A DNA stretch of 64,000 bases, taken from contig JAFQZK010000038.1 of the NCBI GenBank assembly GCA_017405965.1, positions 1 through 64,000 of the forward strand, written 5' to 3'. Of this stretch, positions 22,358-40,679 are shown in pieces. A program made the translations under genes and the position numbers. Each line of letters opens with the position of its first letter. Positions within the stretch are counted from its first letter, which is position 1. The notes below the pieces were generated by a model. The model was not told the origin of the DNA. It did no database searches and saw only the letters and a program-made list of their open reading frames with translations. Source of the stretch: Muribaculaceae bacterium. Lineage in GTDB: Bacteria; Bacteroidota; Bacteroidia; Bacteroidales; Muribaculaceae.

Positions 22358-23122
22358 ATGGCACTGCAACCTGTTTTTAAGCGAGGTTATATTGACTACC
22401 TCAAGAACAACATCAAGCCAGAGGCTTATCTAAAGGATCATTTTGAGTACGACCCCTCACAGGTGGTGCGCCTTTATGGCGTAGCTCATCCTCAAGGCTT
22501 GTTAGAGCAACTTAACCCGACACCTGATGGTGACTTGCAGACAGCAATTGCCATATATGAAGCATACAAGGACATCACTCCTTTGTTTGCCCAGCAAGAC
22601 GATCTTTGGGTATACCTTACTCATGCTGATCTATTTGACTATGTTAAGAAACGTTGGCCAATTAAAACAGGAAATAATATTAGTTTGGTAGAACAGCGTG
22701 ACTTTATCTCAAATCACTGGTTCAGACATGAAAAACATCTTTTTAGGACGTCCATTGGTGGTTTGTGGTGGCAAGTATACCTTACAATTGATGATACACG
22801 AGATAATCCATTTGAACTCACTGAAATATATTTCAGATGTGGACAGGATTTTCATCAACGTTTTGGAGAATTATCATTAATACGGCACAAGGAGGCAATG
22901 ATTGGTGTGCTAGAATTCTTAAACAAACATAAGTATCTTATCAAGAAAGGTTTTGACCCAAAAGGTCAGTATATCTCACGCCTATTTAACAGTATTGGAG
23001 GAACAAAATTATTATCATCTTTGCAACGAGATTATTTTACTCAAGTTTTAGAAAAGAAACTTGCCATAATTGAGAATATAACAGGCAGAGATGAAGTACA
23101 AAATAAAGAAATCAGCATCTAA
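22358..23122 (+). CDS. DUF6339-like protein, copy 2
   Basis: The 254-residue paralogue of the preceding protein shares MALQPVFKRGYIDYLKNNIK, DLQTAIAIYEAYKDITPLFA, DDLWVYLTHADLFDYVKKRW and GGLWWQVYLTIDD. The second halves have diverged and base composition drops toward AT in this copy. Its stop overlaps the methyltransferase start by one base (TAATG). Two adjacent divergent copies suggest either a heterodimer or specificity turnover. Confidence 0.75.
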   Translation: MALQPVFKRGYIDYLKNNIKPEAYLKDHFEYDPSQVVRLYGVAHPQGLLEQLNPTPDGDLQTAIAIYEAYKDITPLFAQQDDLWVYLTHADLFDYVKKRWPIKTGNNISLVEQRDFISNHWFRHEKHLFRTSIGGLWWQVYLTIDDTRDNPFELTEIYFRCGQDFHQRFGELSLIRHKEAMIGVLEFLNKHKYLIKKGFDPKGQYISRLFNSIGGTKLLSSLQRDYFTQVLEKKLAIIENITGRDEVQNKEISI

Positions 23123-24235: not shown

Positions 24236-26497
24236 ATGTTTGAAGATTTAAGAGCGCTCGTTGCACCCATTAAGGATAAAATTCAATTATTCCGTGGGAT
24301 TGACTGCACGCTTCCTGAAGAATTCAAGAAGCGACTCACCAACCTTGGGAAAGATACAATCAAGTATGGCACATATGCAGCAGTTATAACTAATGCTGAT
24401 AATCAACATATATATATCAGCAATAATTGGTTTTATATTGCGGCCATTCTCTCACCTCTATTCAAACCTTTTGAGGCTTATCGCAAAGCTGTAAACGAAA
24501 TTGTTAGTAAAGATATTCTTAAAAACAAGAATAACGAACAAATTACAGCGGCCATTAATACAAGCACAAAGTTTAATGAACAAGACAAGCTTAATCTTAT
24601 AAAATTTGCCACTGATTATTCTTGGTGGACGGCGAACAGCACAGAGTATGGAAAGTCTTTAGACAGAAACGATTGCTTAACATCAGCGGTATTGGCAATT
24701 GCAAATGTAGTTAATAATTCTCAAAGCTACATTGCAGCAATATGGAATTACTTTGGGAATAATCCAGATATAGTACAGCTCTTAGTTAATGATATCGATC
24801 AACATGTTGCAGAAAAAAAGATATGTGTCACAGATAAGAACCTAAGGGAGTTTATATATAAAGTCTTTAAAGTTCTAGAGGAAGATGATCATTTAAGGAG
24901 TTTCCAGCCATATGCTGAAGAGTCCCCATCGAGAATGCAATCAGAATTAAGTACAATAATTAAATTAGCATCTAATTCATTCTCAGAGTCATTAGTGGAT
25001 TTGTTTATAGAAGCTTCGATTGAGGAAATCAATCGAAGAAATAACGTGAATACAACATCACGTTGGTTTACTACGCCTTTTAATTTTAATGGCCGACAAG
25101 TGTACTTGAGCAACCAATGGACAGAAAGTGGTAATTATCAATTAACCTTGAAGGATTTCAAGAAATATCTTTCAGTATGTTATAACGATAATTATATAAT
25201 CACAAAATCATCAAATGGTGTGTTTGAGCTTATCAAAATAGCTGAACATTTTTCTCTTGTTACCCCCTGTTCAGTTGATTATCGAAGACAAGATTCTTCA
25301 CTTCAGGTCGTATATTTTGGCGCCCCTGGTACATCGAAATCTACGACTATAAAAAATATAATAGGAAACGCAACCCAGCATCGCATCACGTTCCACCCAG
25401 ATACTGATTATTCAAATTTCGTCGGTTGCTACAAACCAACGAAAGAAGAAGGTAGTGAGGAAATCACTTATGCCTTTGTTGAACAATCTTTCATCAAAGC
25501 ATACGTTGATGCCTGGAAAAAACTGGTAGATGATTCAGACAAGCAAAAGGAAGTTTATCTCATTATCGAGGAAATCAATCGTGGCAACTGTGCTCAGATC
25601 TTCGGCGACCTGTTCCAGCTGCTTGACCGTGACGATAAGGGCTATAGCGACTACACGATTGAGCCCGATAGCGACCTGCAACGCCACTTGGCAAAGATGT
25701 TCAAGGGAACGAATGTCCCCGAGAATATACGTAACGGTGTTGAAATGCAACTGCCGCCTAACATGTTCATCTGGGCAACGATGAACACCAGTGATCAGTC
25801 ATTGTTCCCGATTGACAGTGCTTTCAAACGCCGTTGGGAATGGAAATACCTGCCCATCAAAGACGACCATAAAGGCCACATTATTCGCGTTGATGAACAA
25901 CATGCCTATGACTGGTGGTTGTTCCTTGAAGCCATCAACCTGCGTATTGAGAAACTCACAGAGCTTGAAGATAAACAGTTGGGCTACTGGTTTGCCAAAC
26001 CCAATAAGGGTAAAGAAATTTCAGTGGAGCGATTTGTGTCCAAGGTCGTGTTCTACCTGTGGAACGACGTGTTCAAGGACTATGGCAACGATGGCAACTC
26101 GCCCTTCAATATCAAACAAAGTGACGACAAAAGATTGAAACTCAAGTTCACCTCGTTCTTTGACCCAGAGGGCAATGTTATGCCCGATAAGGTCATTACA
26201 TTTATCGAGGCTCTTGGCGTTCCTGTGAATACCGGTGCCGCAGCTCCGTTGACCGAGGGTCAGCAAATACCACCAGACGAACAGAACGAGGCATCTGGGG
26301 AGCCAGAAGCAACTCCTGACGAACAACCCGAAGCCCTCGAGCAACATGTAGTAGAAGAGCCACCTGTCGCCTACGGCCCCAATCAACCGGCATCATCCCC
26401 AGAACCCGATGATGATGACGATGATGACGATGACGAACCAGAGGACGAGGGTGGCGATATGAATGACCTGCTTAATGAACTATATCTTCAGAAGTAA
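24236..26497 (+). CDS. McrB-family AAA+ NTPase of the restriction complex
   Basis: The 753-residue protein has a long N-terminal region without recognised motifs (about 1-345) that would read the DNA target. The AAA+ domain follows with VYFGAPGTSKSTT (Walker A with Ser in place of the usual Gly, about 361-369), FHPDTDYSNFVGCYKP, the Walker B YLIIEEINRGN, and the sensor NTSDQSLFPIDSAFKRRWEW. The last 80 residues are an acidic linker with a run of Asp. The McrB family hydrolyses GTP and translocates DNA with a McrC partner. Its stop overlaps the next start (TAATG). Confidence 0.9.
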   Translation: MFEDLRALVAPIKDKIQLFRGIDCTLPEEFKKRLTNLGKDTIKYGTYAAVITNADNQHIYISNNWFYIAAILSPLFKPFEAYRKAVNEIVSKDILKNKNNEQITAAINTSTKFNEQDKLNLIKFATDYSWWTANSTEYGKSLDRNDCLTSAVLAIANVVNNSQSYIAAIWNYFGNNPDIVQLLVNDIDQHVAEKKICVTDKNLREFIYKVFKVLEEDDHLRSFQPYAEESPSRMQSELSTIIKLASNSFSESLVDLFIEASIEEINRRNNVNTTSRWFTTPFNFNGRQVYLSNQWTESGNYQLTLKDFKKYLSVCYNDNYIITKSSNGVFELIKIAEHFSLVTPCSVDYRRQDSSLQVVYFGAPGTSKSTTIKNIIGNATQHRITFHPDTDYSNFVGCYKPTKEEGSEEITYAFVEQSFIKAYVDAWKKLVDDSDKQKEVYLIIEEINRGNCAQIFGDLFQLLDRDDKGYSDYTIEPDSDLQRHLAKMFKGTNVPENIRNGVEMQLPPNMFIWATMNTSDQSLFPIDSAFKRRWEWKYLPIKDDHKGHIIRVDEQHAYDWWLFLEAINLRIEKLTELEDKQLGYWFAKPNKGKEISVERFVSKVVFYLWNDVFKDYGNDGNSPFNIKQSDDKRLKLKFTSFFDPEGNVMPDKVITFIEALGVPVNTGAAAPLTEGQQIPPDEQNEASGEPEATPDEQPEALEQHVVEEPPVAYGPNQPASSPEPDDDDDDDDDEPEDEGGDMNDLLNELYLQK

Positions 26498-28857
26498 TGA
26501 AACTCATTGTAGAAGGTTATCCTTACTCGCCGCAAGACGTTGAACATGTGCTGCAAGGTATTGATGCCCCGCAGAACAAGGACGGCTTGGTGCGTGTAAA
26601 CTATGTGGGCTACTTCTACAACAAGCGGCTGAACGATTGTGTTTTCTTCCTTCCCAAGGTCGTTATCAACGAGAATCGTCAGTTGCTCGACCGCTACACG
26701 CCCGAGGAGCTGATTGACGTTGAACGCTGCAAGCGCATGCGGCGCGAAGACCGGGATTTCATCTACGGCCTATCTGTTTGGATTTATCGAGCCATACGCC
26801 AGTTCCAACTCCTCAATGAGGAGAGCGATATCGTGTACGTCAACACCTATTCCAGGCTTGATGGTTCAAGTAATCGTGTTAACAACACACTGCTTGACGT
26901 GATCTTGTCGCTCATTAGGTTCAACAATGAGAACCATGACTTCTTCATGTTTATCATGAAGAATATCCATAGCGGATACAACAAAATCAACTGGACGAAA
27001 ACCATGGCCCGCAATAGGGCTGTCATGCAGAGAGGCAGGCCCGTGTATGTGGAATTGGTAAACAAGAAGAAACAGATTAACTTTGATGAGGAACTGCTCA
27101 TTATCTACTACTCGACACTCAACCACATCCAGGAGCGATATGGCTTCCGCACTGACATCGATGGCAATTATGAATTGATTACTGGTAACGAGTTCAAGCG
27201 GTGGCTAAACGGTTATGGAAAACTACGCCTGCGTCAAATCAAGTACAAATACTTCAGCGACAAGGCGCTTGTCCTGTGGAAACACTGCTATGCCTTCTTT
27301 GACCTAGCGCAACTGATTAACTCGTCACGACAGCAGAGTGACTACATGCTCGTCAAGAACTTCAATATTGTGTTTGAGGCGATGATTGACGAGCTGTTGA
27401 GCGACGATGACCTAAAGAAGTCAGAATTGAAGAATCAGCCCGACGGCAAGTTGGTTGACCACATCTATGCTTACGACGGACTGATTAATGATGACGAGCG
27501 CATCTATTATATCGGCGACTCGAAGTATTACAAACTGGGTGAAGCCATCGGCCCCAACTCAGTGTACAAGCAGTACACTTATGCTCGCAACGTTATCCAG
27601 TATAACCTGAAACTCTTCTTGCGGGATGAGAAAGATGAATTCGGACGAGGCAAAGGTGCCGGAACCGAGTACCTCATTTATCGTGACCCGGATACAGAGG
27701 GCTACAACATCACCCCAAACTTCTTTATCAGCGCTAGGCTGAATAAAGATTACGACTATGATGACCCAGAGCTGACGTTTATTGGTGACGAACCGCCATT
27801 GAAGCACTTTGAGAATCGCCTCTTTGATCGCGATACCTTGCTGTTGCAGCGCTACAATGTGAACTTCCTGTTTGTCGTTGCCCTCTATGCAGGGGACAAC
27901 GACTATGCCAAAGGCGAGTTCAAAAAGTTCGCGCAGCACAAGTTCAGGGAAGAAATCATCAAGTATCTCCAGAAGCACTACCAGTTCTTCTCGCTGCAGA
28001 AACGGCCAGATAACACTGAGTCACTGCAACAGGTCATCAATAGCCACTTCAGGGACATCATCGGCAGAACATTCCGCCCGTATAGCGACAACGATATCCT
28101 GTACCTCTCCTGCGAGTCGAATAAGAAATACCGAGAGAGTAACCTAGCTCTGTTGTCGCAGCTCAGTGACGATTTCATCATCCGTGACTATAAATTGGGC
28201 ACTGATCCTCGAGATGCCATCAATCATTATACCATCGTGTTCGGCCAAGCTCGTAAGCAAGCTGGTGGTGAAGTGCCTCCTCGCAAATTCACATTGCAGG
28301 ATCTCGCAGACGAGAACTTTCTTATCGGTGGCTATCGCTCCGAGAAGAATCAGTTGCAATGGATACTTGAGCACAAGGAGTATAACGTGCGTGCAAGTGT
28401 GACAAGGCGCGGTAGTGTCGGACGTATTCGCGAGAAGGCTATTGCTGCACGTGTGCTCGTGCTATATAATATTAATGCACCAAAGCAAACGCCTAAAGTT
28501 TATCTATTGGCAGGCCATCGTCAGGTTAAGTCCTTGACCATGCAAAAGATGGGTTATGAAACCCCTGAGGGCGATTATCTGCTATATGAATTGGCATGGG
28601 AACTTCCTTTCGAAACGTTCAACGTTCTCAAGGTAATCAATTATGCCCGCATCGTTGAGATGGAACGCCGTCGCAAGCGCCATTTGGACCTTTCTGAAGG
28701 ATGGGAAGACAAATGGTACGGTACACCACTTTATTATAAGGGGCATGAAATCCAACGAATCCTGCAAGGACTTCCTGCTAAAGAATTAAGCTATCGGCAA
28801 GCCTATCACGAGAACATCATGGCAGCATCTAATGATAGTGCGAAAACAGATAAGTGA
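26497..28857 (+). CDS. McrC/LlaJI-like restriction nuclease subunit
   Basis: The 786-residue protein overlaps the McrB-like gene by one base. A PD-(D/E)xK-type core is visible around residues 322-345 (LVDHIYAYDGL ... RIYYIGDSKYYK, i.e. D...DxK), followed by VYKQYTYARNVIQYNLKLFL. N-terminal residues 1-300 are helical. The C-terminal third (KFTLQDLADENFLIGGYRSE, INAPKQTPKVYLLAGHRQV) may form a target-binding domain. It resembles the nuclease partner of LlaJI-type systems, in which an McrB-like motor and this subunit cut on command of a linked methyltransferase. Assignment of the active site is by eye. Confidence 0.75.
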   Translation: MKLIVEGYPYSPQDVEHVLQGIDAPQNKDGLVRVNYVGYFYNKRLNDCVFFLPKVVINENRQLLDRYTPEELIDVERCKRMRREDRDFIYGLSVWIYRAIRQFQLLNEESDIVYVNTYSRLDGSSNRVNNTLLDVILSLIRFNNENHDFFMFIMKNIHSGYNKINWTKTMARNRAVMQRGRPVYVELVNKKKQINFDEELLIIYYSTLNHIQERYGFRTDIDGNYELITGNEFKRWLNGYGKLRLRQIKYKYFSDKALVLWKHCYAFFDLAQLINSSRQQSDYMLVKNFNIVFEAMIDELLSDDDLKKSELKNQPDGKLVDHIYAYDGLINDDERIYYIGDSKYYKLGEAIGPNSVYKQYTYARNVIQYNLKLFLRDEKDEFGRGKGAGTEYLIYRDPDTEGYNITPNFFISARLNKDYDYDDPELTFIGDEPPLKHFENRLFDRDTLLLQRYNVNFLFVVALYAGDNDYAKGEFKKFAQHKFREEIIKYLQKHYQFFSLQKRPDNTESLQQVINSHFRDIIGRTFRPYSDNDILYLSCESNKKYRESNLALLSQLSDDFIIRDYKLGTDPRDAINHYTIVFGQARKQAGGEVPPRKFTLQDLADENFLIGGYRSEKNQLQWILEHKEYNVRASVTRRGSVGRIREKAIAARVLVLYNINAPKQTPKVYLLAGHRQVKSLTMQKMGYETPEGDYLLYELAWELPFETFNVLKVINYARIVEMERRRKRHLDLSEGWEDKWYGTPLYYKGHEIQRILQGLPAKELSYRQAYHENIMAASNDSAKTDK

Positions 28858-29735: not shown

Positions 29736-30953
29736 ATGAACTATCTAGATCTTCAAAGAGCAAAAGAGACATTTCAACTTGAAAGTTTGGAGAATGAGCG
29801 CCAGGTGTTGTATCAAGTGCGGCACAAGTTTGTCAAGATGTTCTCACCCAAATTCATCGCTAATATGTCCATTGATGATTATGTTTATGGTAAGGGAGAG
29901 GACACCTTTTGCTATAAGCTGGAACGCACACTGGCAAATTTAGGCTCAATAAACACCCGATTTGGATATAAAAAGTTCGGAGTGTGGTGGTCGAAAGATG
30001 AAGGCTCGTATAAGTTTGACCCATTGTTCGGGAAGACATATCTAGAAGCATTCGAAAACGTCAGGAAGGCATTGCTGAAACTTCTTGAAGATGGTGCTGC
30101 AGAAGATGATAAATCAATCAGCACATGCCCAATTTATTCATTAGTACTTGGTAAAATTCTGTCTGTTTACTATCCGGAAAAATACCTTAACATATTCTCA
30201 AGCAGACATCTTAACCATTATCTCATATCACTTGATCTGGATACCAAAGAATTAATGGGTAAACATCCCATATACAAAGGCAAACGGCTACTTGAATTCA
30301 AGAACAATGACCCGGATATGAAGAATTGGTCGGTTGATATGTTTGCAGTATTCCTTTGGGGGCACTACCCCAAAGACCCTCGGTTACAGGAGGGTGGCGC
30401 TATCAAATCGAAGCATAAACAACCAGTTTTTACAACAATAACAAAACCTGATTTCATCAACCTCCAGATTGTTTCAGGACAACATGCGACGTCACAAGCG
30501 GCCACTGGAACTAAATCAAAACCAGATTATGAGGCCTTGGAACGCCGCAACAAGCTTCTTGGCGATCGAGGAGAGCATGCGGTTGAACTCGCCGAAATCA
30601 ACAGACTGATGAAAGAACAAAAGATTCCTGAAGCCGAAGCCAAAAGACGTGTCAATAGAGTATCGTTAATAAGTGACTCTTATGGCTACGATATTATTTC
30701 TCAGAACGCTGATGGATCTCCAAGATATATTGAGGTGAAGGCGACCCAAGGCAACCCAGGCGATATGGAATTCTTCTACACGGCCAATGAATATGCGGCT
30801 GCTCTAAAATATAAGGAGGCATATTACATTTACGTCGTGTATGATATATGCTCCACGAAACCTAAGATTTGGCCAATCCCGAATCCTTTCATTGGCAATA
30901 ATAGGTTAGAACTAGTGCCTATCAAATACAGAGTTAAAATCAACACGAAATAA
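29736..30953 (+). CDS. Protein with C-terminal DUF3883 (PD-(D/E)xK-like) domain
   Basis: The 405-residue product has an N-terminal part of about 240 residues rich in charged and aromatic residues (YYPEKYLNIFSSRHLNHYLI), then a DUF3883-type domain: LLGDRGEHAVELAEINRLM, LISDSYGYDIISQNADGS, RYIEVKATQGNPG and FFYTANEYAAALKYKEAYYI. The E(V)K and upstream D fit a nuclease-like core; DUF3883 proteins are frequent in McrBC-type defence loci. It closes the restriction run; a 136-base gap with a new promoter follows. Confidence 0.8.
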   Translation: MNYLDLQRAKETFQLESLENERQVLYQVRHKFVKMFSPKFIANMSIDDYVYGKGEDTFCYKLERTLANLGSINTRFGYKKFGVWWSKDEGSYKFDPLFGKTYLEAFENVRKALLKLLEDGAAEDDKSISTCPIYSLVLGKILSVYYPEKYLNIFSSRHLNHYLISLDLDTKELMGKHPIYKGKRLLEFKNNDPDMKNWSVDMFAVFLWGHYPKDPRLQEGGAIKSKHKQPVFTTITKPDFINLQIVSGQHATSQAATGTKSKPDYEALERRNKLLGDRGEHAVELAEINRLMKEQKIPEAEAKRRVNRVSLISDSYGYDIISQNADGSPRYIEVKATQGNPGDMEFFYTANEYAAALKYKEAYYIYVVYDICSTKPKIWPIPNPFIGNNRLELVPIKYRVKINTK

Positions 30954-31028: not shown

Positions 31029-31063
31029 GCGAACATAGGGTTCGCAAATTACTGGTTTCTTTG
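31029..31063 (+). promoter_or_regulatory. WYL-regulon operator and promoter 1
   Basis: A perfect palindrome GCGAAC-ATAGG-GTTCGC (31029-31045) lies 15 bases before the TTTG of the -7 box (TTTCTTTG, 31056-31063). The same 17-bp layout and the same spacing recur at 34990, 35811 and 38453. It would control the propeller/WYL operon. Confidence 0.8.
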
Positions 31064-31089
31064 CATGCAAAAATTAATCGAATCACAAT

Positions 31090-33933
31090 ATGGCAACTAT
31101 TCATCCATACAAAGGTTACCTGAACACTGAGTTCCAATTGTTTTCACGAAATAATGAGCCCGTCTCTTTTGTTATTATTCGGAGTGATGACTCATCTAAT
31201 AAGATTGAAGGGACACTTGAACCCAATGTGCCCCAAAGACTCAGGATGTCGCATTCTGGGGAGTATAATATTCATTTCGACGATAATTCAGAAGCTGAAT
31301 TTATTGTTGAAGAAGGTTATAAACTCGGAGGCGGTCATTTCAAGAATGCCTTTGTTTTTGATAACTGTCCTTGGGGCTTCGTGGTGATGCACGATCGCAC
31401 ATACTTCCATAATAGGGAAACTGGTGAAGAATATGTTGAATTCATATCACCGGATACGATTATTGAAGTGTCCCAAGATTATGTTCTCTTCAAAAACAAC
31501 GGGCAACAGGAAGTAACGCTATATTCACTTCATGATCAAAAGCCAGTAATTTGCGCAAGTGATATCCTTTATCATAACCCTTGCTTTCTTGTTTGGAGCG
31601 AGAGCCATGATGATAATCAGTCCAAGGATATTATTGTTTACTCGATCAACAAAAAATCCATTCTCATAAGAGATAGTTATTCTCATATATCTATTGACAC
31701 TCAGAATGGACGCATTTACTATGTAAACAATAACCAGGTACAATCAATCAACCTAAGTTCTGATGAGAACTTTACTCATGAACCGTTGATAATTAAGGGA
31801 ACATTCGCAGCATTTGCCCAAACAGTTTATGCAGTGTTTATTGAAGCTTCTCATAGCAGAAAGAACTTGGTTGTTTATAATCTAGATACACGTGAAGAAA
31901 GAGGCAGAATAATGGTTTCTGGCCACATTTCTCGTCTTAATGACGCCATATTTATAGACATTCACGAAAGACATCGATCAATTCATACTTTTGATTTAAA
32001 AGTGTCAGGCTTTCCTGAGGCCATAATTTCTGCCGAATATATTGAGTTTGATATCTATCCATGTGAAGAAGATGTTTTTTATAAAGAAACACATATAAAA
32101 GTTTCATCTGAAGCGTATGGTTTCCAGGAAAACTCTGTTCTTAAATCTACCAGTACAGAACTGTTAGAAGCAATTAATTCTTGCCAACATGCGGTTCTAA
32201 CAGATGGTTTTTTTTGTATTTATGGCGCTTCGGAATCTGTTGTCATCCCCCTTAGATACCGTCATCGTTTATGCCATAAAGAATCAGGAAGAATTCATTC
32301 TTACCAAAACATGTTGGTTTTAGAAGAGGACAACTCTTTTACTCAACTTAACCAACATGGTTTTTGGCAAACACGTATTGAGCAGAAAGGCGACTTCAGG
32401 TTATATGAAGATTATGGGATCATACTTGATAAAGACTCCCAAGAAATCGCAAACAATAGAACACTTGGGAAGTTTATTACTAGGAATCAACAAAAAGGTT
32501 ACGTCAGAACCAATAATGCTTTTATCAGATCTGATGGTACTGTATTACGAACTCAGAATATTGAAGAAATACCCTCAAATTTATCACCCAAATTCAGATT
32601 TGGCATAGATTTGATAAATAATGAGGTTTATATTTCTCAATTTATGGGTAAGTATTCCGGCTATACTAGGCGCAAAATATTGAGCGAATTATTTGATGCG
32701 TCATCATACGCAAATGTATTGTTCTGTGAAGACGGTCATAAGATATTATACCAGAACAACAAGGTATTCACATTGTTTGATGTAGACACAGCCGAAATAA
32801 CAGAATTTGATAATCTCCATTTTGTAAGACATATCAATGGATCCAGACCATTATTCAGATTAGACCAGCACCGACAAGCCATCCTTATCAATCCGGTAAC
32901 TGGTCTGCGGATTGATTTTGATTTAATCTCAAATTATAAGTTCATCAGCCCTAATGGTGAATTATATGCAGATAACAAGCTTGAACAATACATAGAATAT
33001 TATAATAGAATTTCAAAGGAAGTCGTTAAATCGCAAGAATATAACGAACTTAGTGAACTATTGGATTTCCCTACATTCAACTGGACAAGCAGGGAAGACC
33101 ATGATATGAAGAAAGAAGAGGCATTAAAAGCTCGCAAGGATTTCATTTCTGAGCATCAGGACTATTTTGATGAATTGCCTGAAGAAAGTAAAAGAGGTCT
33201 CTTGACAATACCATTATTCGTCAATGTCTTTGTTATAGAGAAACGTGGCGTTGCTCTAATTCGTAAGATAAACACGAAAGAAGTGTACCGTAAAATACCA
33301 TTAGGGCCTCCCCTTAAGTATATTAATTATGCAGCTTTCTCTTATGACAATAGATATGTAGCCATTGCTGGCTGTTATCCATTAGGTGCAGGGGGAGGAC
33401 TATATTTGATTTATGATCTCATTAAACAAGTTGTTATATGCCAAACAACGACATCTAAGGCCGTTTGGACTGCCGCCTTTACTAAGGGTGGAGCAATTGC
33501 CGCCTATACCAGCGATCCTATTTCATTTTTTGCTTCATCAGAAGGCTCCTATTCCGAGTCAATTCAAAACGAAAACATTATTAATGGATATAATTTCCTA
33601 TCGTTTAGTCCAGATGGTAAGTACTTCGCTTGTTCGCAACAAGGCTACATCTCATACCGAAAAGCGAATGGCGAGACGAGAGCAAACTGGGGGCATCAAC
33701 CTTCATCTCTTGTAAGTATTAGAAAAACAAACGATCCCAAAGAAGAGATTGTTAAATTTGAAGATTTATCAGATTATACCATTGGTAATAGCAAAGGAAT
33801 TGCAGACACATTCAGTGCTCAATCTGTTGCATCTGTTTCATTCTCGAATGACAACAAGCAAATAATGATGGTAGGAAATGATGGAATCGTAATAATTAGA
33901 AACCTGTATCTAGATAGATATGCCAGCGAATAA
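31090..33933 (+). CDS. Large beta-propeller (WD40-like) protein of a defence regulon
   Basis: The 947-residue soluble protein has no signal peptide. After a short N-terminal beta region (LEPNVPQRLRMSHSGEYNIH) it contains many strand-turn-strand units. The clearest are C-terminal and WD40-like: INYAAFSYDNRYVAIAGCYP, YNFLSFSPDGKYFACSQQGY and SVASVSFSNDNKQIMMVGND. A helical insert lies at about 635-710 (SREDHDMKKEEALKARKDFI). Propellers of this size act as sensors or scaffolds. No catalytic motif is visible. Its last 14 bases overlap the WYL gene, so it is translationally coupled to the regulator. Confidence 0.75.
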   Translation: MATIHPYKGYLNTEFQLFSRNNEPVSFVIIRSDDSSNKIEGTLEPNVPQRLRMSHSGEYNIHFDDNSEAEFIVEEGYKLGGGHFKNAFVFDNCPWGFVVMHDRTYFHNRETGEEYVEFISPDTIIEVSQDYVLFKNNGQQEVTLYSLHDQKPVICASDILYHNPCFLVWSESHDDNQSKDIIVYSINKKSILIRDSYSHISIDTQNGRIYYVNNNQVQSINLSSDENFTHEPLIIKGTFAAFAQTVYAVFIEASHSRKNLVVYNLDTREERGRIMVSGHISRLNDAIFIDIHERHRSIHTFDLKVSGFPEAIISAEYIEFDIYPCEEDVFYKETHIKVSSEAYGFQENSVLKSTSTELLEAINSCQHAVLTDGFFCIYGASESVVIPLRYRHRLCHKESGRIHSYQNMLVLEEDNSFTQLNQHGFWQTRIEQKGDFRLYEDYGIILDKDSQEIANNRTLGKFITRNQQKGYVRTNNAFIRSDGTVLRTQNIEEIPSNLSPKFRFGIDLINNEVYISQFMGKYSGYTRRKILSELFDASSYANVLFCEDGHKILYQNNKVFTLFDVDTAEITEFDNLHFVRHINGSRPLFRLDQHRQAILINPVTGLRIDFDLISNYKFISPNGELYADNKLEQYIEYYNRISKEVVKSQEYNELSELLDFPTFNWTSREDHDMKKEEALKARKDFISEHQDYFDELPEESKRGLLTIPLFVNVFVIEKRGVALIRKINTKEVYRKIPLGPPLKYINYAAFSYDNRYVAIAGCYPLGAGGGLYLIYDLIKQVVICQTTTSKAVWTAAFTKGGAIAAYTSDPISFFASSEGSYSESIQNENIINGYNFLSFSPDGKYFACSQQGYISYRKANGETRANWGHQPSSLVSIRKTNDPKEEIVKFEDLSDYTIGNSKGIADTFSAQSVASVSFSNDNKQIMMVGNDGIVIIRNLYLDRYASE

Positions 33934-35008
33934 GAATGCAATGACTCGTTATATGATACTGGACGAGCTTTTGAGCAACCAGTATCACGACTACTCACTC
34001 GATGATTTGACCGAAGAAGTGAGTCGCAGACTGTCGGAAATGTATTCCGATACAAAGGGTGTGGTGCGTCGAACTATTGAAAAAGACATCAATTACCTTG
34101 AGTATGAGGGTCCGTTTTTGGTTGAAATAGAGCGCAGGTGGGTACCATGTGCCAACAAAGAAACCGGCAAGACTACAAGCAAAAAATGTTTAAGATATAA
34201 GGATCCTTCCTTCTCAATTTTTAAGAAAGAGCTGTCTGTCGACGAGAAGCTACTTCTAAAAGAGGCGTTTTCATTGCTCGGCCAATTTGACGGGCTACCG
34301 AACCTTGATGCGCTTGAGAAACTCAGACTGAGTTTGGATATGGGCGAGAAGGAAGATCGCCATATTATATCTTTTACCAAGAATCCTCTTGAGAATTCCA
34401 ATCTGCTTGGTGAGCTGTTCACTGCCATATCCCATAAGCAGGTTATAGAATTGGAATACCATACATTCTCAAGACCAGATGAAAAACGTCATGTGGTCAT
34501 CCATCCTTATCTGCTTAAAGAGTATAATCGACGCTGGTTCCTGATAGCTGCGGCTGACAGTGACCAAAAGATCCTCAACTTTAGCTTGGATCGTATTAAT
34601 GGAGTGAAACCATTGGGTGGATATGAATTCATTCAACCGCAGAATGACTTGAGGGAACGCTTCGAAGATATAATTGGGGTAACAATCTATGAGGACAGTC
34701 CGGTATATAAGATATACTTTTGGGTTTCAGAGGGATCAAAAAGTTATGTCTCGACAAAGCCTCTTCACGACTCTCAACGCTGTCTGAAAGGCGACAACGA
34801 ATCGGAATTTAGAAAACGATTCCCAATGCTTAAAGATGGGGCTTTCTTTCGCATTGACTGCAAAGAAAACTATGAGTTAATCCGTGAACTTACTGCGTTT
34901 GGAAATGACCTTATTGTTCTTGAACCATCAGGAATCCAGGATGCAGTATATGAACGTATCAAATCATTGCAAGATGATTATCTAAAAATACGAACAAAGA
35001 ATTCGTAA
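33920..35008 (+). CDS. WYL-domain transcriptional regulator (candidate regulator of four local operons)
   Basis: The 362-residue protein has an N-terminal winged-helix domain (ILDELLSNQYHDYSLDDLTE, TKGVVRRTIEKDINYLE), a linker, a central WYL domain (about 170-245: KQVIELEYHTFSRPDEKRHV, HPYLLKEYNRRWFLIAAADS, LDRI) and a C-terminal WCX-type extension. WYL regulators of defence islands (BrxR/CapW type) bind palindromes and are released by a nucleotide-like signal. Four identical-spacing palindromes flank this gene, so it is the natural candidate binder. A truncated paralogue lies at 51086. Confidence 0.9.
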   Translation: MPANKNAMTRYMILDELLSNQYHDYSLDDLTEEVSRRLSEMYSDTKGVVRRTIEKDINYLEYEGPFLVEIERRWVPCANKETGKTTSKKCLRYKDPSFSIFKKELSVDEKLLLKEAFSLLGQFDGLPNLDALEKLRLSLDMGEKEDRHIISFTKNPLENSNLLGELFTAISHKQVIELEYHTFSRPDEKRHVVIHPYLLKEYNRRWFLIAAADSDQKILNFSLDRINGVKPLGGYEFIQPQNDLRERFEDIIGVTIYEDSPVYKIYFWVSEGSKSYVSTKPLHDSQRCLKGDNESEFRKRFPMLKDGAFFRIDCKENYELIRELTAFGNDLIVLEPSGIQDAVYERIKSLQDDYLKIRTKNS

Positions 35009-35024
35009 ATATCACTGAAATTTG
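34990..35024 (+). promoter_or_regulatory. WYL-regulon operator and promoter 2
   Basis: ACGAAC-AAAGA-ATTCGT (34990-35006) is palindromic at five of six arm positions. The TTTG of the -7 box (GAAATTTG) starts exactly 15 bases after its end. It overlaps the 3' end of the WYL gene and precedes the 242-residue gene. Confidence 0.75.
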
Positions 35025-35052
35025 CAACGTCAAATATTAAAATCATTCTAAG

Positions 35053-35781
35053 ATGGAGCTATATTACGACAAAACCAGCCAGAAATTGGCTATGATTAAA
35101 AGTGATACGAACGAGTTGGTTTTCGAATCTGAAGTAATTATCGGCAGGCACAGATTCAAAGACATTAATTGTGGCTGTTTTTGCATTAGAAGTTGGACAA
35201 ACTTTTATCCCACCTCACCACATCGTGAATATATCTGGATAGATATTTTTGTTCATGGGGCTTTTTTCTTGCCTATATCTGAGGCTTATGCAAATGGAAA
35301 ATTTGACAAAAGTCGACTTCCTCATGCAGATTGGAGGGATGATGCGAACAAATCTTTTCATTCGATTATTTGCACCAATCATGATAAATCATGGAATGGT
35401 GAATATGAATATGAGTTAGTATCAGCATTCGCACAGGCTCGCGATTTCTGTAATGATTATCAAGAAAGAATGCTTCGTGAAGTCCAAAAATTGATGTCAC
35501 ACTTTGACGCAAATGAGATGAAAGATAATCCATATTTTTTAGGTTCCCTGCTTCGACTGACCGACAAGTGGTATAAGGCTAGCCCAGAGATCACTCCTCT
35601 TATTCAGCCTTTTTTGGACAACTACTGTTATGAAAGAATGGCATCATTGATTAATAAACTACAAAACCGAGATTATCCGTCAGCTGCGAGTATAAACATT
35701 GCGGAATTAATCAAAAACGGAGATCTTTATTGGAACCACATTAAGAGCCATTTATTACCTGAGCAAGAGAATAAAGAATAA
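35053..35781 (+). CDS. Unrecognised 242-residue protein in the WYL regulon
   Basis: The product begins MELYYDKTSQKLAMIKSDTN and contains a Cys/aromatic patch (FKDINCGCFCIRSWTNFYPT), an acidic amphipathic helix (AFAQARDFCNDYQERMLREV) and a helical C-terminus. It has no signal peptide or membrane segment. It is monocistronic between operator 2 and the retron promoter. Its position beside the retron makes it a possible retron accessory protein, but operator logic suggests an independent unit in the same regulon. Confidence 0.7.
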   Translation: MELYYDKTSQKLAMIKSDTNELVFESEVIIGRHRFKDINCGCFCIRSWTNFYPTSPHREYIWIDIFVHGAFFLPISEAYANGKFDKSRLPHADWRDDANKSFHSIICTNHDKSWNGEYEYELVSAFAQARDFCNDYQERMLREVQKLMSHFDANEMKDNPYFLGSLLRLTDKWYKASPEITPLIQPFLDNYCYERMASLINKLQNRDYPSAASINIAELIKNGDLYWNHIKSHLLPEQENKE

Positions 35782-35810
35782 TAAGGGCGAGGTTGCAAAA
35801 ATCATTCAAC

Positions 35811-35845
35811 CTGAATATAGAATTCGCAAAAGGGTATTACCTTTG
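35811..35845 (+). promoter_or_regulatory. WYL-regulon operator and promoter 3 (retron)
   Basis: CTGAAT-ATAGA-ATTCGC (35811-35827) has an intact right arm and a weaker left arm. The TTTG of a strong -7 box (TACCTTTG, 35838-35845) starts exactly 15 bases after it. Transcription would begin near 35852, about ten bases before the retron a1 repeat. Confidence 0.7.
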
Positions 35846-35862
35846 TAACATAAAAGAAAACG

Positions 35863-36129
35863 AGCGGTCTTTGACAAGTCTGGAAGCTGAAAAGCCATTT
35901 TGAACTTTGTCCTGCGCATTCGCGGGATGTCCATAATTCCCTTTGGGAGTTGTGGATAACAATGTTAGGCGTGTTAACGTTCAACTGCGTTTCACTGATG
36001 TACTGCGTACATTGTATTATTTTTAGTGATTATGATCATTATGATTATTTAGATCATTATGATTATTTAGATCATTGCTATATTTTCTGAAAGAAAAGGC
36101 TTTTTAGTGACTGGAATTCAAAGACCGCT
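35863..36129 (+). ncRNA. Retron msr-msd non-coding RNA
   Basis: AGCGGTCTTTG (35863-35873) and CAAAGACCGCT (36119-36129) form a perfect 11-bp a1/a2 inverted repeat enclosing about 267 bases, directly upstream of the RT gene. Inside, the msr-like part has two strong hairpins: 35910-35927 (CCTGCG/CGCGGG, loop CATT) and 35931-35955 (11 bp, loop TTT). AAAAGCC near 35890 can pair with GGCTTTT near 36099. The msd-like part holds ATGTAC-TGC-GTACAT and an 18-base tandem repeat (2.4 copies, 36034-36076). The branching G cannot be fixed by eye. Confidence 0.8.
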
Positions 36130-36144
36130 TTTTAATTTGATATT

Positions 36145-37608
36145 ATGGATAGGAACTACATAGCACAGCAAGCTGCCAAGATGGAGACAAAGCATGATCT
36201 TTTGTCTCTTCTCAACCGCATCAAGATTTCTTGGTTCGAGGATATGGGCATGACTGTAAAGTTCCATCCATTTACGATGAAGCAGCTAAATTACTACAGC
36301 AATCCTAATCATACTTTTCATCGATACTCGCAATTCAAGATAAAGAAAAAGACTGGAGGTTTTCGCCAAATCACTGCTCCACGCAGCAAAACATTTAAGC
36401 TCATGCTGATGTGCTTAAATGAAATGTTTAAATCTATCTATTCGCCATCTGATTTTGCAATGGGCTTTACAGAGGGCCGCTCAGTCGTAAGCAATGCAAG
36501 CATCCATAAAGGGCAGAACTATATCTTCAATATAGACCTGAAAGATTTCTTTCCAAGTATATACAGAGTTAGAGTGAGAGCCAGGTTACAAGCAAAGCCT
36601 TTCTGCTTTAATGAAAATATTGCCATGTTGCTTGCCGGACTTTGCTCAATGAAAATTTCTAGTGGTCATAACGATGGTAGGGACTATGTGCTGCCACAGG
36701 GCTCCCCTACTTCACCAATCATTACAAACATGATTTGTGATAACCTCGATCGCCGTCTAGCGGGTCTTGCGAAGCGCTTCGGTTTAAGATACTCTCGATA
36801 TGCTGATGACATTACATTTAGTTCCATGCATAACGTTTACCAGACCAATGGTGAGTTCAGAACTGAACTGAGACGTATTATTGAAGGTCAAGGGTTTACT
36901 ATAAATGAAGCAAAAACGAGATTGCAAAAGCAAGGCTCCAGGCAAGAAGTAACTGGTTTAATAGTTAGCGATAAGCTCAACGTTACGCAACATTATGTTA
37001 GAGACATTCGCAACATACTTTTTATTTGGGAGCATTATGGTTACAATGCTGCTTTTACTCGTTTTTTCCCAAGATATAAAGCAGAAAAGGGTCATGTTAA
37101 AAAAGGCGTGCCTGATTTAATCAATGTGCTTGATGGAAAATTGATGTACCTTAAGATGGTAAAAGGGGCAGAAGATAGCGTATATATTCGGCTGTTCAGT
37201 AAATATAGAACGCTGGCTGACAAAGCACATAGTATTGATAACACAACGGAACATGGTGTTACCTATGTCGAGACCATCCCTCTTCATGATTTTGAGGTTA
37301 ATAATTCGACAGAAGTAATAATAGATTGGGTTGTCCCCACGAGTGATGATGAAAACGGACAGCCAAAGCCCAAACGCCGTACAGCATCTTTTACTCTTGA
37401 TGGCAAGAGAGTATATGCTTCAGTCAACAAAAATGTAAAAAAAGAAGATGAGCAAAAGAAAGAATTACTTGCAATATCAAACTGCAGAGACGCAAAGAAC
37501 AAACAATTTTGGCTGATACACTATGTAAACAAAGTTACCGTGCCACCTGCAGAACCTGTGAATATAGAAGAATTAAGCAACGAGCTTGACGCTCTTTTAA
37601 ACTCATAA
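36145..37608 (+). CDS. Retron reverse transcriptase
   Basis: The 487-residue RT carries retron-specific marks: region X NAxxH as NASIHKGQNYIFNIDLKDFF (about 117 onward), the palm motif RYADDITFS (about 218-221), DYVLPQGSPTSPIITNMICD, and region Y VTG as RQEVTGLIVSDKLNV. The C-terminal 150 residues extend beyond a minimal retron RT and include a basic stretch (GQPKPKRRTASF) with no motif I know. It should copy the adjacent ncRNA into msDNA that stays joined to the RNA. The HEPN-type gene follows one base after its stop. Confidence 0.92.
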   Translation: MDRNYIAQQAAKMETKHDLLSLLNRIKISWFEDMGMTVKFHPFTMKQLNYYSNPNHTFHRYSQFKIKKKTGGFRQITAPRSKTFKLMLMCLNEMFKSIYSPSDFAMGFTEGRSVVSNASIHKGQNYIFNIDLKDFFPSIYRVRVRARLQAKPFCFNENIAMLLAGLCSMKISSGHNDGRDYVLPQGSPTSPIITNMICDNLDRRLAGLAKRFGLRYSRYADDITFSSMHNVYQTNGEFRTELRRIIEGQGFTINEAKTRLQKQGSRQEVTGLIVSDKLNVTQHYVRDIRNILFIWEHYGYNAAFTRFFPRYKAEKGHVKKGVPDLINVLDGKLMYLKMVKGAEDSVYIRLFSKYRTLADKAHSIDNTTEHGVTYVETIPLHDFEVNNSTEVIIDWVVPTSDDENGQPKPKRRTASFTLDGKRVYASVNKNVKKEDEQKKELLAISNCRDAKNKQFWLIHYVNKVTVPPAEPVNIEELSNELDALLNS

Positions 37609-37609
37609 T

Positions 37610-38446
37610 ATGGATGACAATGTAAAGTCAGTATTACATAAGGTGATACAACTCTCAAAGCAAAACGAAGAGTTTGACAAAGAGTTGCGGAGGGCATTAA
37701 ATATAGTGCCGTCCGCTAAGTTGTCAAGTTCGGATTCGGAGAAAAGAATTTTAAATATCGAGAAATATTTAGGATTGGATTATCTCCTCGATAGCCAAAC
37801 TTCTGTCATTGATTATTCTTTCGTGTCGGATATAAATGTTCGCATTCAACTGATATCCGATAATCGTGAAATGCAACGGTTTAGATTCGGAACTCGATAT
37901 CATAAGATTGATTTTGAAGAATGTTGCAGATATACTATGCTTCAGGGTGAGATGCTGTTAAACTACTACTATTATAATAAAGGAGAGAATATAAGTAAAA
38001 TTGTTGATTATATTAAACGATTCAATTCGCATGTTACAATTAGTGAGAAGATTGTATCGCTGACAGAAATATCCTTCAATGTTAAGATGTGGGCGTTCAA
38101 GAATGAAGTTGATTTCGATAAATCTATAGGATTATTGTGGGATTATATAAGAAATACAAGGAATTCAATCAGTCACCGCTCTATTGAAAAAGAAGAATTC
38201 CAAATTAAAAAATATAGGGAGCGGCTCCTGTCAATGAATATGCCACTGAATGAAAATGGGGAAGTAAACTATTACAAATTGACAGAAGGATCTCAAGAAA
38301 TGAACTTGTATAAAAATATGATTAACAACACAGATGAATATAGAAAGTATCGGTATTTTCTATGGCTAAAGAGAGAGCCTTATGACGATTTAAATAAATC
38401 CTTGATGTGTCTAGTTGAGCAAGTTCAACAGAACATCTCAAAGTAA
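37610..38446 (+). CDS. HEPN-like protein, probable retron effector (RNase toxin)
   Basis: The 278-residue helical protein follows the RT stop by one base. Residues 181-190 read RNTRNSISHR and contain the HEPN RNase signature R-x4-H (Arg184, His189) with the usual polar residue after Arg. It sits in a helix-rich context (EEFQIKKYRERL follows). HEPN proteins are metal-independent RNases that act as toxins in many defence systems. By gene order it would be the effector held inactive by the RT-msDNA complex. The fold assignment rests on the motif and helicity alone. Confidence 0.65.
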   Translation: MDDNVKSVLHKVIQLSKQNEEFDKELRRALNIVPSAKLSSSDSEKRILNIEKYLGLDYLLDSQTSVIDYSFVSDINVRIQLISDNREMQRFRFGTRYHKIDFEECCRYTMLQGEMLLNYYYYNKGENISKIVDYIKRFNSHVTISEKIVSLTEISFNVKMWAFKNEVDFDKSIGLLWDYIRNTRNSISHRSIEKEEFQIKKYRERLLSMNMPLNENGEVNYYKLTEGSQEMNLYKNMINNTDEYRKYRYFLWLKREPYDDLNKSLMCLVEQVQQNISK

Positions 38447-38452
38447 TAATTT

Positions 38453-38487
38453 ACGAACAAAGAATTCGCAACCTCTTCTCAACTTTG
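38453..38487 (+). promoter_or_regulatory. WYL-regulon operator and promoter 4
   Basis: ACGAAC-AAAGA-ATTCGC (38453-38469) shares its left arm and centre with operator 2. The TTTG of the -7 box (CAACTTTG) starts exactly 15 bases after its end. It precedes the HAD/PRTase/DprA trio; the start of the first gene is about 27 bases downstream. Confidence 0.78.
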
Positions 38488-38513: not shown

Positions 38514-39065
38514 ATGAGAAATCTGTCAAAATACCCGACGTTCGTTTTCGATCTTGATAACACATTGGTTGAAACTAACATTGCAAACAATTTGTCATAC
38601 ATGGAAGCAATTAAAGAAGTATTGAATGAAGACTTTTGTTTTGATTCCAAGCAAAGGTTTACTCGTGATAAATTGTTGGCATTCTTCCCAGGGGTATCTC
38701 AAACTGAGTACAACGACATTATAGCCATCAAAAAGGAGAAATTTAACTCACATATTGCAGAAACGACATTAAATACAAATCTTGTAAGAATCCTTAAAGT
38801 TTTGAGTCATCACGATTGCGAGACAATTCTTTTGACTCATTGCCGTCGTGAACGTGCGATGTCGATCTGTTCATATTACAATATTGCAAAATACTTTACA
38901 GCACTTTACTTCTTTGAAGATGAAATTCGTACTAAATACGATGTACTTCTAAGAAATGGTTATAACATGGAGTCAATCATTTTGTTTGAGAATGAAAGTG
39001 ATGGTAAAGAAGAAGCCATAAGAAATGGTATAATCAGTGAGAATATTATTGGTGTTAAATTTTAA
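38514..39065 (+). CDS. HAD-superfamily hydrolase
   Basis: The product has about 183 residues with HAD motif I FVFDLDNTLVE near residue 12, motif II LLTHCRR (Thr/Ser position) and motif IV-like LFENESDGKEEA near the end. It should be a small-molecule phosphatase, plausibly acting on a nucleotide or sugar phosphate. I start it at ATG 38514, just after operator 4, because the longer upstream frame would run across the promoter. It forms an operon with a PRTase-like and a DprA-like gene. Confidence 0.85.
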   Translation: MRNLSKYPTFVFDLDNTLVETNIANNLSYMEAIKEVLNEDFCFDSKQRFTRDKLLAFFPGVSQTEYNDIIAIKKEKFNSHIAETTLNTNLVRILKVLSHHDCETILLTHCRRERAMSICSYYNIAKYFTALYFFEDEIRTKYDVLLRNGYNMESIILFENESDGKEEAIRNGIISENIIGVKF

Positions 39066-39079: not shown

Positions 39080-39742
39080 ATGAAGAAATATACAATTGCA
39101 TCGAGTGAAAGCGTTTGTCGCACGTTGAATGGAGGCTTTGGTGTTTGCCTATTGCGTGATACAATCGCCTATTATCATGGCGATTACATGGGAGGAGGTA
39201 ATTGGAGAATCTCCGGCACTCTTGAGAATTTAATATGTACTCTTAAAAATGATATCAGACCATACTCTCAGGAAGAATTGCATGAGAAGATGCAAAAATT
39301 GGCACATATCCTTAAATCGGATTTGCCGGCAATACTGAAGGATTGTGATAAGGATTCGCTCAGAGTCTGTGTGATACCGAGAGCAAAAAAAGAGGATTCT
39401 TACCGCTTTGACCAGTTATATTTTAGGGGAACAATACAATCGGTAGTCAATGACCTGCCTGAATTTGAAGATGGCACACATGACATTATCCGTCAATTAG
39501 ATACTGTAACGACCCATCGTGCCAAATTTGGATATGGTGGATCTGGTGAAATGCCTTATGTCGGCATAACAAAAGATACATGCTCAATATCTGACGAAGT
39601 TGTTGGCAAAGATATCTTATTGATTGACGATTTATATACTAAGTCTATCAACATTGACGAAGATGGCATTCAAGCTCTTTATGACAAAGGTGCTAGAAAC
39701 GTGTTTTTCTATTCAATCGGTAAGACTATGTTAAGATTTTAA
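39080..39742 (+). CDS. Phosphoribosyltransferase-like protein
   Basis: The 220-residue protein has a C-terminal PRTase-type loop, DILLIDDLYTKSINIDEDGI, with the two acidic residues that normally hold PRPP and an unusual TKS in place of the TTG/A turn. It ends in GARNVFFYSIGKT. The N-terminal half has a Gly-rich strand (GDYMGGGNWRIS). ComF-like proteins have this C-terminal half. It lies between HAD and DprA-like genes, so a nucleotide or nucleoside intermediate is the likely common substrate. Confidence 0.75.
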   Translation: MKKYTIASSESVCRTLNGGFGVCLLRDTIAYYHGDYMGGGNWRISGTLENLICTLKNDIRPYSQEELHEKMQKLAHILKSDLPAILKDCDKDSLRVCVIPRAKKEDSYRFDQLYFRGTIQSVVNDLPEFEDGTHDIIRQLDTVTTHRAKFGYGGSGEMPYVGITKDTCSISDEVVGKDILLIDDLYTKSINIDEDGIQALYDKGARNVFFYSIGKTMLRF

Positions 39743-39755: not shown

Positions 39756-40679
39756 ATGATTTACTCTGAAAATAGTTTAAACTTACTTACAGCAAGGACT
39801 TACCCTAAAAAAGGGCCTGCATGGATCAATAAAAATCTGATGGGCGTAAGTCTATCATTATTGTGCGAGCGGCTTGAAACAGATGAGGCCGAATTCTTGG
39901 AGAAACGTGACAATATTGAACGGACAATAAAAAAGCTTGGAGATAGCATTGATGGCATCATTGCAATTGGTGACAGTGACTTTCCCCATATTAGAGGTTG
40001 TGTCACCCCTGCTGATAGACCATTCGCTCTGTTTTACAAAGGAGATTTACAACTCTTAAGCAAATCAAACTTAAATGTTGCTGTGATTGGTGTGTTGAAT
40101 CCTGATGACAAAATTGAGCTTACAGAACGAATGGTTGTCGCTGAAATTCTTAAGCATGAAGCGACAATTATAAGTGGGCTTGCTTTAGGCTGCGATTCTA
40201 TTGCACACCGAGTGGCGTTAGAGCAACTGGGTAAAACGGTTGCGATATTACCTAGTCCACTTAATAACATAGTGCCTAAAGAAAATTTAAAACTTGCGAA
40301 TAAGATTGTGGCTAACGGTGGTCTATTAATTAGTGAATACTATGAAGAGCCAAAAAGCAGAAACGATATGATCAGTAGATTTGTTGTACGAGATAGGCTT
40401 CAGGCTCTTTTCTCGGATGCCATTTTGCTGTCTGCTAGTTATGCACCTAACAATTTAGGTAACGATAGCGGTTCAAGGCATGCCATGGAAAAAGCGAAGG
40501 TTTATGGCATAAAAAGAGGCGTTATTTATAACGAGTCAAAACATTTAAACAATCCTATGTACGACTTGAACAGACAGATTCTTAACGAAGACAAAACTGT
40601 AGTTCGTATTGATTCAGCAAATATGGTTGAAGCCATAAATCAATTAGTGTCTAAACCAATCATTCAGTCCTTATTTTAA
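39756..40679 (+). CDS. DprA-like (SMF/Rossmann) protein
   Basis: The 307-residue product shows the DprA/Smf Rossmann core: IRGCVTPADRPFALFYKGDL, VAVIGVLNPDD, TIISGLALGCDSIAHRVALE, KTVAILPSPLNNIVPKENLK and GGLLISEYYEEP. The usual GTR/GSR loop is replaced by GVL. DprA normally loads RecA on incoming single-stranded DNA. DprA-like proteins also occur in conflict-type operons with PRTase and HAD enzymes, where they may bind nucleotides. Here it is the last gene of such a trio; a terminator follows. Confidence 0.85.
   Translation: MIYSENSLNLLTARTYPKKGPAWINKNLMGVSLSLLCERLETDEAEFLEKRDNIERTIKKLGDSIDGIIAIGDSDFPHIRGCVTPADRPFALFYKGDLQLLSKSNLNVAVIGVLNPDDKIELTERMVVAEILKHEATIISGLALGCDSIAHRVALEQLGKTVAILPSPLNNIVPKENLKLANKIVANGGLLISEYYEEPKSRNDMISRFVVRDRLQALFSDAILLSASYAPNNLGNDSGSRHAMEKAKVYGIKRGVIYNESKHLNNPMYDLNRQILNEDKTVVRIDSANMVEAINQLVSKPIIQSLF

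Follow-up and report, generated by a model that had tools for sequence, protein, structure and literature searches.

The question raised by this locus is whether four apparently separate defence operons answer to one regulator encoded among them. The window (the whole stretch of DNA analysed: 64,000 nucleotides (nt) of Muribaculaceae bacterium GCA_017405965.1, contig JAFQZK010000038.1, positions 1–64,000, forward strand) carries an operon for a beta-propeller-like protein and a WYL-domain regulator, an orphan gene for 242 amino acids (aa), a retron, and a trio of HAD-family, phosphoribosyltransferase-like (PRTase) and DprA-like genes. A first-pass annotation had noticed one 17-bp palindrome before each of these units, at an identical distance from the −7 box, and had proposed a WYL-controlled defence regulon or, alternatively, one undescribed multi-operon system. 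We found all four palindromes where it had placed them, with TTTG beginning 15 bases after each, and comparison of related loci supports the regulon: the spaced motif stands beside the WYL genes of this clade and is at background elsewhere, in most loci it heads the WYL gene itself, and its half-sites agree within loci. The best explanation is that a WYL homodimer probably switches on all site-bearing neighbour operons from the place of the −33 element.

An inverted repeat at a fixed distance from the −7 box

All four operators lie on the forward (+) strand. Operator 1 (GCGAACATAGGGTTCGC, 31029–31045) precedes the propeller/WYL operon, with TTTG at 31060–31063 after TTTC; operator 2 (ACGAACAAAGAATTCGT, 34990–35006) lies within the last codons, at the 3′ end, of the WYL gene and precedes the orphan, with TTTG at 35021–35024 after GAAA; operator 3 (CTGAATATAGAATTCGC, 35811–35827) precedes the retron and is the weakest palindrome of the four, with 4 of 6 arm pairs, its TTTG at 35842–35845 belonging to a perfect TAnnTTTG (TACCTTTG); operator 4 (ACGAACAAAGAATTCGC, 38453–38469) precedes the trio, with TTTG at 38484–38487 after CAAC. 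Exactly 14 nt separate the end of each repeat from its TTTG. These sites are the top matches in the 64-kb window of the matrix built from them (23.6–27.7 bits; next 14.1), a ranking that is circular by construction. The pattern CGAACAWAGRRTTCGC-N14-TTTG, allowed up to 3 mismatches, occurs in the 3,598,342-base genome at the four window sites and at one further place with 3 mismatches, and its mirrored control at none; the first-pass annotation had named a palindrome common genome-wide as what would count against its proposal, and the spaced palindrome is nearly absent outside the four sites. When TA is also required in the −7 box, again with up to 3 mismatches, this genome and three relatives together give 12 matches, 11 of them in WYL islands, and the control gives 0. 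Between 13.9 and 31 kb of the window no operator was found.

The spacing was followed through 84 loci, made up of the best 80 of 397 WYL relatives (48–90% identity; species genomes searched with a four-sequence WYL alignment), L155 from a scan of viral contigs, the window, and the loci of genomes G021 and G292; genome G111 is not counted separately because L150 is a contig of it, and some locus contigs are cut short. The 80 loci come from Bacteroidales or Bacteroidetes, many of them from rumen or other ruminant gut. Their 1.446 Mb contain 134 stretches that agree with the motif at 13 or more of its 15 positions, and in 117 of these TTTG follows exactly 14 nt on; the next commonest offset, 6, has a count of 15, and the mirrored control yields 13 matches, 0 at 14. 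Inspected singly, the 17 exceptions comprise one N15 variant before a WYL gene and otherwise stretches without an in-register −7 box. If dyads ahead of a −7 box are counted from 5 of 6 arm pairs upward, the 84 loci have 178 at gap 14, against 12–25 at each of eleven other gaps, and the rule with motif letters added gives 193 sites, 190 of them on the strand of the WYL gene. At least two sites are present in 68 of the 84 loci.

L155 was the one further close WYL relative from the viral contigs, and the only stretch in IMG/VR bearing the motif is its contig; plasmid and phage records hold 9 and 4 WYL relatives, respectively, at most 34% identical and none of them close. Although listed as viral, the L155 contig carries the WYL gene, a WG-repeat gene and a retron, whose reverse transcriptase (RT) is split in two frames, behind genes for an integrase, a primase-like protein and a relaxase. 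Because of the integrase, relaxase and primase-like genes beside this set, L155 looks more like a mobilizable element than a phage, and it shows one way of transfer.

Distribution of the motif, its letters and the genes it heads

We scanned 393 genomes of the order for the spaced motif with up to 1 mismatch and obtained 18 matches in 15 genomes, the present one included. Three lie in the window, and four are promoter matches beside retron RT, WYL or HAD genes, in G292, G021 (two) and G111 (exact). A protein search of the same genomes places the closest WYL relatives in G292 (64%), G021 (56%) and G111 (51%), then in G387 (51%), with the next at 39%; the three other genomes with promoter-like matches are thus the holders of the three closest WYL relatives. 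Farther out, 25 WYL loci (31–39% identity, ±1.5 kb) contain 8 gap-14 palindromes, one per locus, against 0–4 at other gaps, and at least one of the eight is AT-rich and probably due to chance. Wide stretches around G051, G079, G040, G347, G335 (two), G029 and G387 held no convincing site under the strict rule, and in G051 and G029 dyads with other half-sites stand 14 nt before TTTG. A survey that began from the RT found it in 15 of the 393 genomes, with an in-register dyad upstream in eight: the present genome, G111, G021 and G292, and, with GTGCA-like arms, G017, G349, G056 (4 of 6 arm pairs) and G081 (about 0.95 kb upstream). In G017, G056 and G081 the WYL gene is paired with the retron (31–34% WYL identity), and the GTGCA-like dyads keep the same distance before TAnnTTTG.

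Other results of these searches either weigh against the pairing of motif and regulator or are neutral to it. Eleven matches in eleven other genomes, near the level of the mirrored control (8 matches), lie inside long reading frames in ten cases and between genes in one (G324), and two of them lack the full TTTG. The G387 relative (G387:C27:74284–75288) has an in-frame stop and no site within 34 kb, and is perhaps a decayed instance. No gap-14 palindrome was found within 1.5 kb of 17 of the 25 distant WYL genes. Among the RT loci, the dyad of G156 lies downstream of the RT, although a WYL gene adjoins it; in G312 the WYL gene is about 11 kb off and the dyad, which is AT-rich, pairs at 4 of 6 arm positions; the AT-rich dyad of G293 differs in sequence, and no WYL gene accompanies it in 14 kb; G142 has neither WYL gene nor dyad in 14 kb; and G070, G026 and G351 show no WYL gene and no convincing site in the 3–4 kb around the RT.

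The half-site classes are CGAAC (44 loci), CGAAA (19) and CGCAA (20). When the WYL-heading site was compared with the other sites of its own locus (81 pairs from 48 loci, 2,000 shuffles), half-site position 4 agreed in 70 of 81 pairs (shuffles: mean 49, maximum 62) and position 6 in 55 of 81 (mean 28, maximum 44). In the predicted recognition helix of the WYL protein, E54 predicts A at position 4 in 76 of 82 cases, better than any other column, and K55 predicts C at position 6, also in 76 of 82, second only to S19. Changes of operator class on a module's tree versus the WYL tree number 5 and 5 for the RT, 7 and 5 for the family of the RT partner protein (c2), 3 and 2 for PIF1, 5 and 2 for the ATPase c6, 3 and 2 for YhcG, and 5 and 2 for c7.

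In 59 of 84 loci the WYL gene has a site no more than 1 kb upstream, and in 52 of them the distance is 32–73 nt. The RT gene has one in 40 of 43 cases, 29 times at 250–340 nt, which is the room needed for the retron RNA; in some of the remaining cases another gene comes first after the site. The same holds for 7 of 8 HAD genes, at 40–45 nt, and for 3 of 3 propellers, as against 0 of 14 for the internally placed partner family and 0 of 9 for DprA. There are 202 site-headed units, 190 of them with a gene, in 36 head clusters, 14 of which head at least two units; single-unit clusters include chance sites, and one representative per cluster was scanned. The heads are WYL (58), RT (34), WG-repeat proteins (16), AAA ATPases (13; NsnB/AriA/PtuA-like by PADLOC), PIF1 helicases (11), HAD (7), propellers (6), a protein with a weak HATPase match (6), GajB-like UvrD helicases (4) and others, and YhcG/PDC-S02 nucleases (20 loci) and iREC proteins (9 loci) are carried inside units. 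By BLAST with the window proteins, 43 of the 84 loci have the RT and 8 the whole trio; propeller and orphan are present in 3 each, the propeller count rising to 7 in a looser cluster. Since the mixture of modules differs from locus to locus, we regard the set as a modular local regulon of exchangeable modules.

Direction of control and rival explanations

Bacteroidetes promoters are reported to carry TAnnTTTG at −7 and TTTG near −33 (PMC7366714), and here the dyad sits in place of the −33 element. Of 187 operator promoters, 0 have TTG in the interval 26–31 nt ahead of the −7 TTTG, against 58 of 185 controls drawn from these loci; since the −33 place is taken up by the chosen motif, this zero is in part a matter of construction and tells us only that no −33 element is hidden there. 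Strong conservation across the 187 promoters is limited to the dyad and its core, the spacing, the −7 box and an A-rich start region, and the letters of the spacer mostly vary. In sites chosen blind to the core, it reads AWAS toward the −7 box in 94 of 141 and in reverse in 0, and a symmetric dyad with a polar centre is what one would expect of a site read by polymerase or by a dimer that is placed asymmetrically.

As the first-pass annotation had held, a WYL regulator is encoded inside the set: the 362-aa product of 33920–35008 (+) matches Pfam WYL (48.3 bits) and WCX (25 bits), both above cut-off, and its N-terminal helix-turn-helix (HTH) was read by eye from a conserved RRTIEKDI region, no HTH match being returned by Pfam. 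Its nearest solved sequences are 7p5x and 9fnd ('Transcriptional regulator-like protein', E 2.8e-7), which we take to be PafBC–polymerase complexes, and PafBC itself (6sj9, E 8.4e-5); the WYL protein 7qfz (E 0.0019), BrxR (E 0.07) and CapW (E 0.094) are more remote. The preprint on the cryo-electron microscopy of DriD from Caulobacter (PMC12340889) describes sites at one distance from the −10 box, overlapping a poor −35, with sigma-4 between two DNA-binding domains and, according to a section heading, an asymmetric binding mode. DriD, on that account, is a homodimeric winged HTH–WYL protein with a dyad at constant distance from −10 in several promoters, its own included, which is the arrangement predicted here, but its targets are DNA-damage genes (PMC12340889), whereas those proposed here are neighbouring defence modules with Bacteroidetes-type promoters. 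Two of its features recur in our loci, the fixed distance from site to box and, partly by construction, a site over a −33 place of poor consensus. SiwR is described as a homodimeric WYL activator whose palindrome, with its conserved GGA at −26, falls between −10 and −35, and PafBC as activating by sigma adaptation (PMC10693628, PMC11804915). Both of these actinobacterial regulators resemble the present one in being seated between −10 and −35, in the −26 region, but as described there PafBC is a heterodimer with >150 targets and SiwR serves one adjacent operon (PMC10693628, PMC11804915), and the RxxR pair of both is mostly missing in this WYL clade.

We infer that the WYL protein would bind the 17-bp inverted repeat as a homodimer, replacing the −33 element, and that from this fixed position it would recruit or hold RNA polymerase on the −7 box. 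The propeller/WYL operon, the orphan, the retron operon (RNA, RT and effector) and the HAD/PRTase/DprA trio would then be switched on jointly, the signal, by analogy with DriD, PafBC and SiwR, probably being a nucleic-acid ligand of the WYL domain after phage attack or DNA damage.

Several observations speak against this account. Three of the four −7 boxes in the window lack a perfect TA, with TT, GA and CA instead, whereas sites of relatives have TA in 112 of 117, and absence of TTG from the −33 place is shared by 127 of 185 ordinary promoters. The RxxR pair is mostly [A/S]xxR, residue 222 being A or S in 70 of 84 sequences and R in 5, with R225 retained in 79 of 84, so that the ligand may be a different one and may not be single-stranded DNA. 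With 3 and 2 independent pairs, the tests of residues 54 and 55 did not reach significance, and they are uninformative because the operator letters change only 2–3 times on the WYL tree. Lastly, known defence-island WYL proteins are described as repressors: CapW, which we take to act on inverted repeats, is presumably one, and BrxR is another (PMC9122601).

One could accordingly envision a WYL dimer that represses, lying over the −33 region of the four promoters and keeping RNA polymerase off them until it is released on phage infection. Silencing is common for toxic modules, and a site centred near −33 would block sigma. BrxR, a dimeric WYL repressor with two inverted repeats (R-boxes) in one defence island, offers the precedent, but its repeats lie downstream of the predicted −10, whereas ours are upstream of the −7 box, and the accessible part of that report contains no fixed spacing and no interchangeable modules with a common operator (PMC9122601). 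Blocking, moreover, needs no exact spacing, and here 117 of 134 stretches keep 14 nt with one promoter-like exception; the core points one way only, and the nearest solved relatives are activators. The fixed spacing and the one-way core thus favour a DriD- or SiwR-like activator over a BrxR-like repressor, and we consider repression unlikely, though it is the strongest of the rivals; given binding, activation seems likely.

The remaining rivals concern what the four operons are and what reads their sites. The first-pass annotation's second suggestion, a single obligate system with the WYL protein as its internal regulator, gains from the recurrence of retron and trio together with WYL in L078, L128, L131, L135, L150 and the window, but is weakened by the shuffling of site-headed operons between loci described above and by the PRTase, whose homologue occurs in 6 of 393 genomes, with the operator seen within the 1.8–3.7 kb stretches examined only in this genome and G111; it is very improbable. 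Equally improbable is that the palindrome is read by another factor, such as a LexA-like repressor or an alternative sigma, with the WYL gene as one more of its targets. The WYL gene is itself site-headed in most loci, and the CGAAC-N-GTTCG dyad resembles the Gram-positive SOS box; against this, operator letters are alike within a locus and seldom change along the WYL tree, the site is island-local rather than genome-wide, and sites of sigma factors are not dyads. A LexA/SOS box was also rejected on the ground that published Bacteroidetes motifs differ and are reported absent from Bacteroidales. That the shared sequence is a copied promoter or repeat, spread by duplication without any regulator, would fit the resemblance between sites of one locus, but sites adjoin unrelated genes in many records, and variable spacers around a conserved dyad, core, spacing and −7 box count against it, leaving it with practically no probability.

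A bolder version of WYL activation would have the site serve as a plug-in standard of Bacteroidales, such that any module with a site 14 nt before its −7 box joins the local WYL activator, and would have the single-stranded DNA of the retron, which is the most frequent target apart from WYL, or the loss of that DNA during infection, act as the WYL ligand that sets the whole island. Plug-in and feedback are graded as one joint claim, which we hold to be quite improbable. As for precedent, RptR resembles the present case in that one regulator serves a stacked defence island, but it is described as a small alpha-helical protein that represses a single promoter through three repeats over the −10 (PMC12255303). 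WYL control of defence islands is already known; among the papers listed by a literature search, mostly without subscription papers, there was no description of this regulon, nor of a multi-promoter, module-independent operator with fixed geometry that mostly heads retrons.

The modules, their island and a second promoter set

The retron is genuine as judged by its parts, because the motifs of its RT occur together with a structured RNA that has a1/a2 arms. The non-coding RNA (35863–36129, +) has 12-nt arms, a1 at 35863–35874 (AGCGGTCTTTGA) pairing with a2 at 36118–36129, and a1 starts 17 nt past the −7 TTTG; the stretch 35852–36144 folds at −106.2 kcal/mol (z −9.8), and Rfam gave 0 matches at E up to 1. 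Arms of at least 9 nt were found in 19 of 33 loci, versus 1 of 33 in one shuffle each. The RT (36145–37608, +; 487 aa) matches Pfam RVT_1 and the PADLOC retron RT models. NAxxH, VTG and YxDD are motifs of retron RTs, and all three are present in 39 of 43 of the RTs, here as NASIH, VTG and YADD. Next to it lies the gene for a 278-aa partner (37610–38446, +), a candidate retron effector with an invariant RN-x3-HR, whose family (c2) is present in 28 loci and keeps R184, N185, H189 and R190 in 27 of 27 aligned members, the remainder being very divergent (20–47% identity to the window protein). RN-x3-HR presumably corresponds to the Rx4H-like motif of HEPN nucleases, which suggests that the family is of that kind, a candidate HEPN effector in what may be a new retron subtype; Pfam, PADLOC, NCBIfam and PHROGs returned no domain match for it, and the search for a solved relative gave as its best hit a designed binder, at E 0.68.

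Among the other modules, the propeller-like protein (31090–33933, +; 947 aa) has a weak WD40 match of 21.1 bits, below the Pfam cut-off of 27. Its homologues in L075 and L145 are each preceded by the same operator, and as a query it matched 3 of 295 genomes, the present one included, the other two weakly. The 242-aa orphan (35053–35781, +) is an open reading frame (ORF) without a match in Pfam, PADLOC, NCBIfam or PHROGs; it has homologues in L127 and L142, the latter also headed by a site. The trio consists of the HAD-family gene (38514–39065, +; Pfam HAD_2, 31.5 bits), the PRTase-like gene (39080–39742, +; 220 aa) and the DprA/ShosA-like gene (39756–40679, +; Pfam 122.5 bits). The PRTase-like product may be a ShosT phosphoribosyltransferase toxin, on the strength of LLIDDLYT, which we take to resemble a phosphoribosyl pyrophosphate loop, with no match in the same four libraries; the ShosA partner expected of a ShosTA-type trio is present by PADLOC (158.6 bits). 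Farther left, a tyrosine integrase gene (13897–15282) lies to the left of a long stretch with defence-like genes, among them an Mrr endonuclease (17758–18684), a C5 methylase (23122–24234), an AAA/LlaJI-like pair (24236–28857) and a NO VEIN-domain protein (29736–30953). Because the integrase stands at the left of these genes, the stretch suggests an integrated island.

A second promoter set of the same 14-nt geometry but with another dyad, ACGCAAAAAGAMTGCGG, occurs at 4 places in the genome with up to 3 mismatches, its mirrored control at 0: window 49000 (+), window 58017 (−), G000:C35:378 (+) and C35:4134 (−) (L198–L202). Downstream of these sites are a 65-aa ORF, HTH-like by eye, with an RNA-ligase gene next after it; two tRNA clusters; and a phosphoesterase gene. 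The window has a T4 RNA ligase 2-like gene at 49812–50831 and, on the minus strand, 18 tRNA genes in 1.5 kb (56452–57967), after which comes a gene of the phage T4 GP30.3/NADAR kind (55840–56418). After the phosphoesterase gene lies a 137-aa ORF without a Pfam match whose start resembles a WYL regulator by eye. The set is possibly a WYL-run one for tRNA repair or replacement.

As regards the control of stacked defence islands, the pairing of operons with a regulator can here be read from sequence in dozens of islands. The promoter rule is precise enough to predict new members and to annotate the 242-aa orphan, the WG-repeat proteins and the propeller as co-regulated defence candidates. It predicts that fixed-position activation by WYL proteins, as seen in Caulobacter and mycobacteria, extends to the atypical promoters of Bacteroidetes, and that retrons, which are often studied in isolation, are members of an inducible set, such that several unrelated defence sets could be turned on together.

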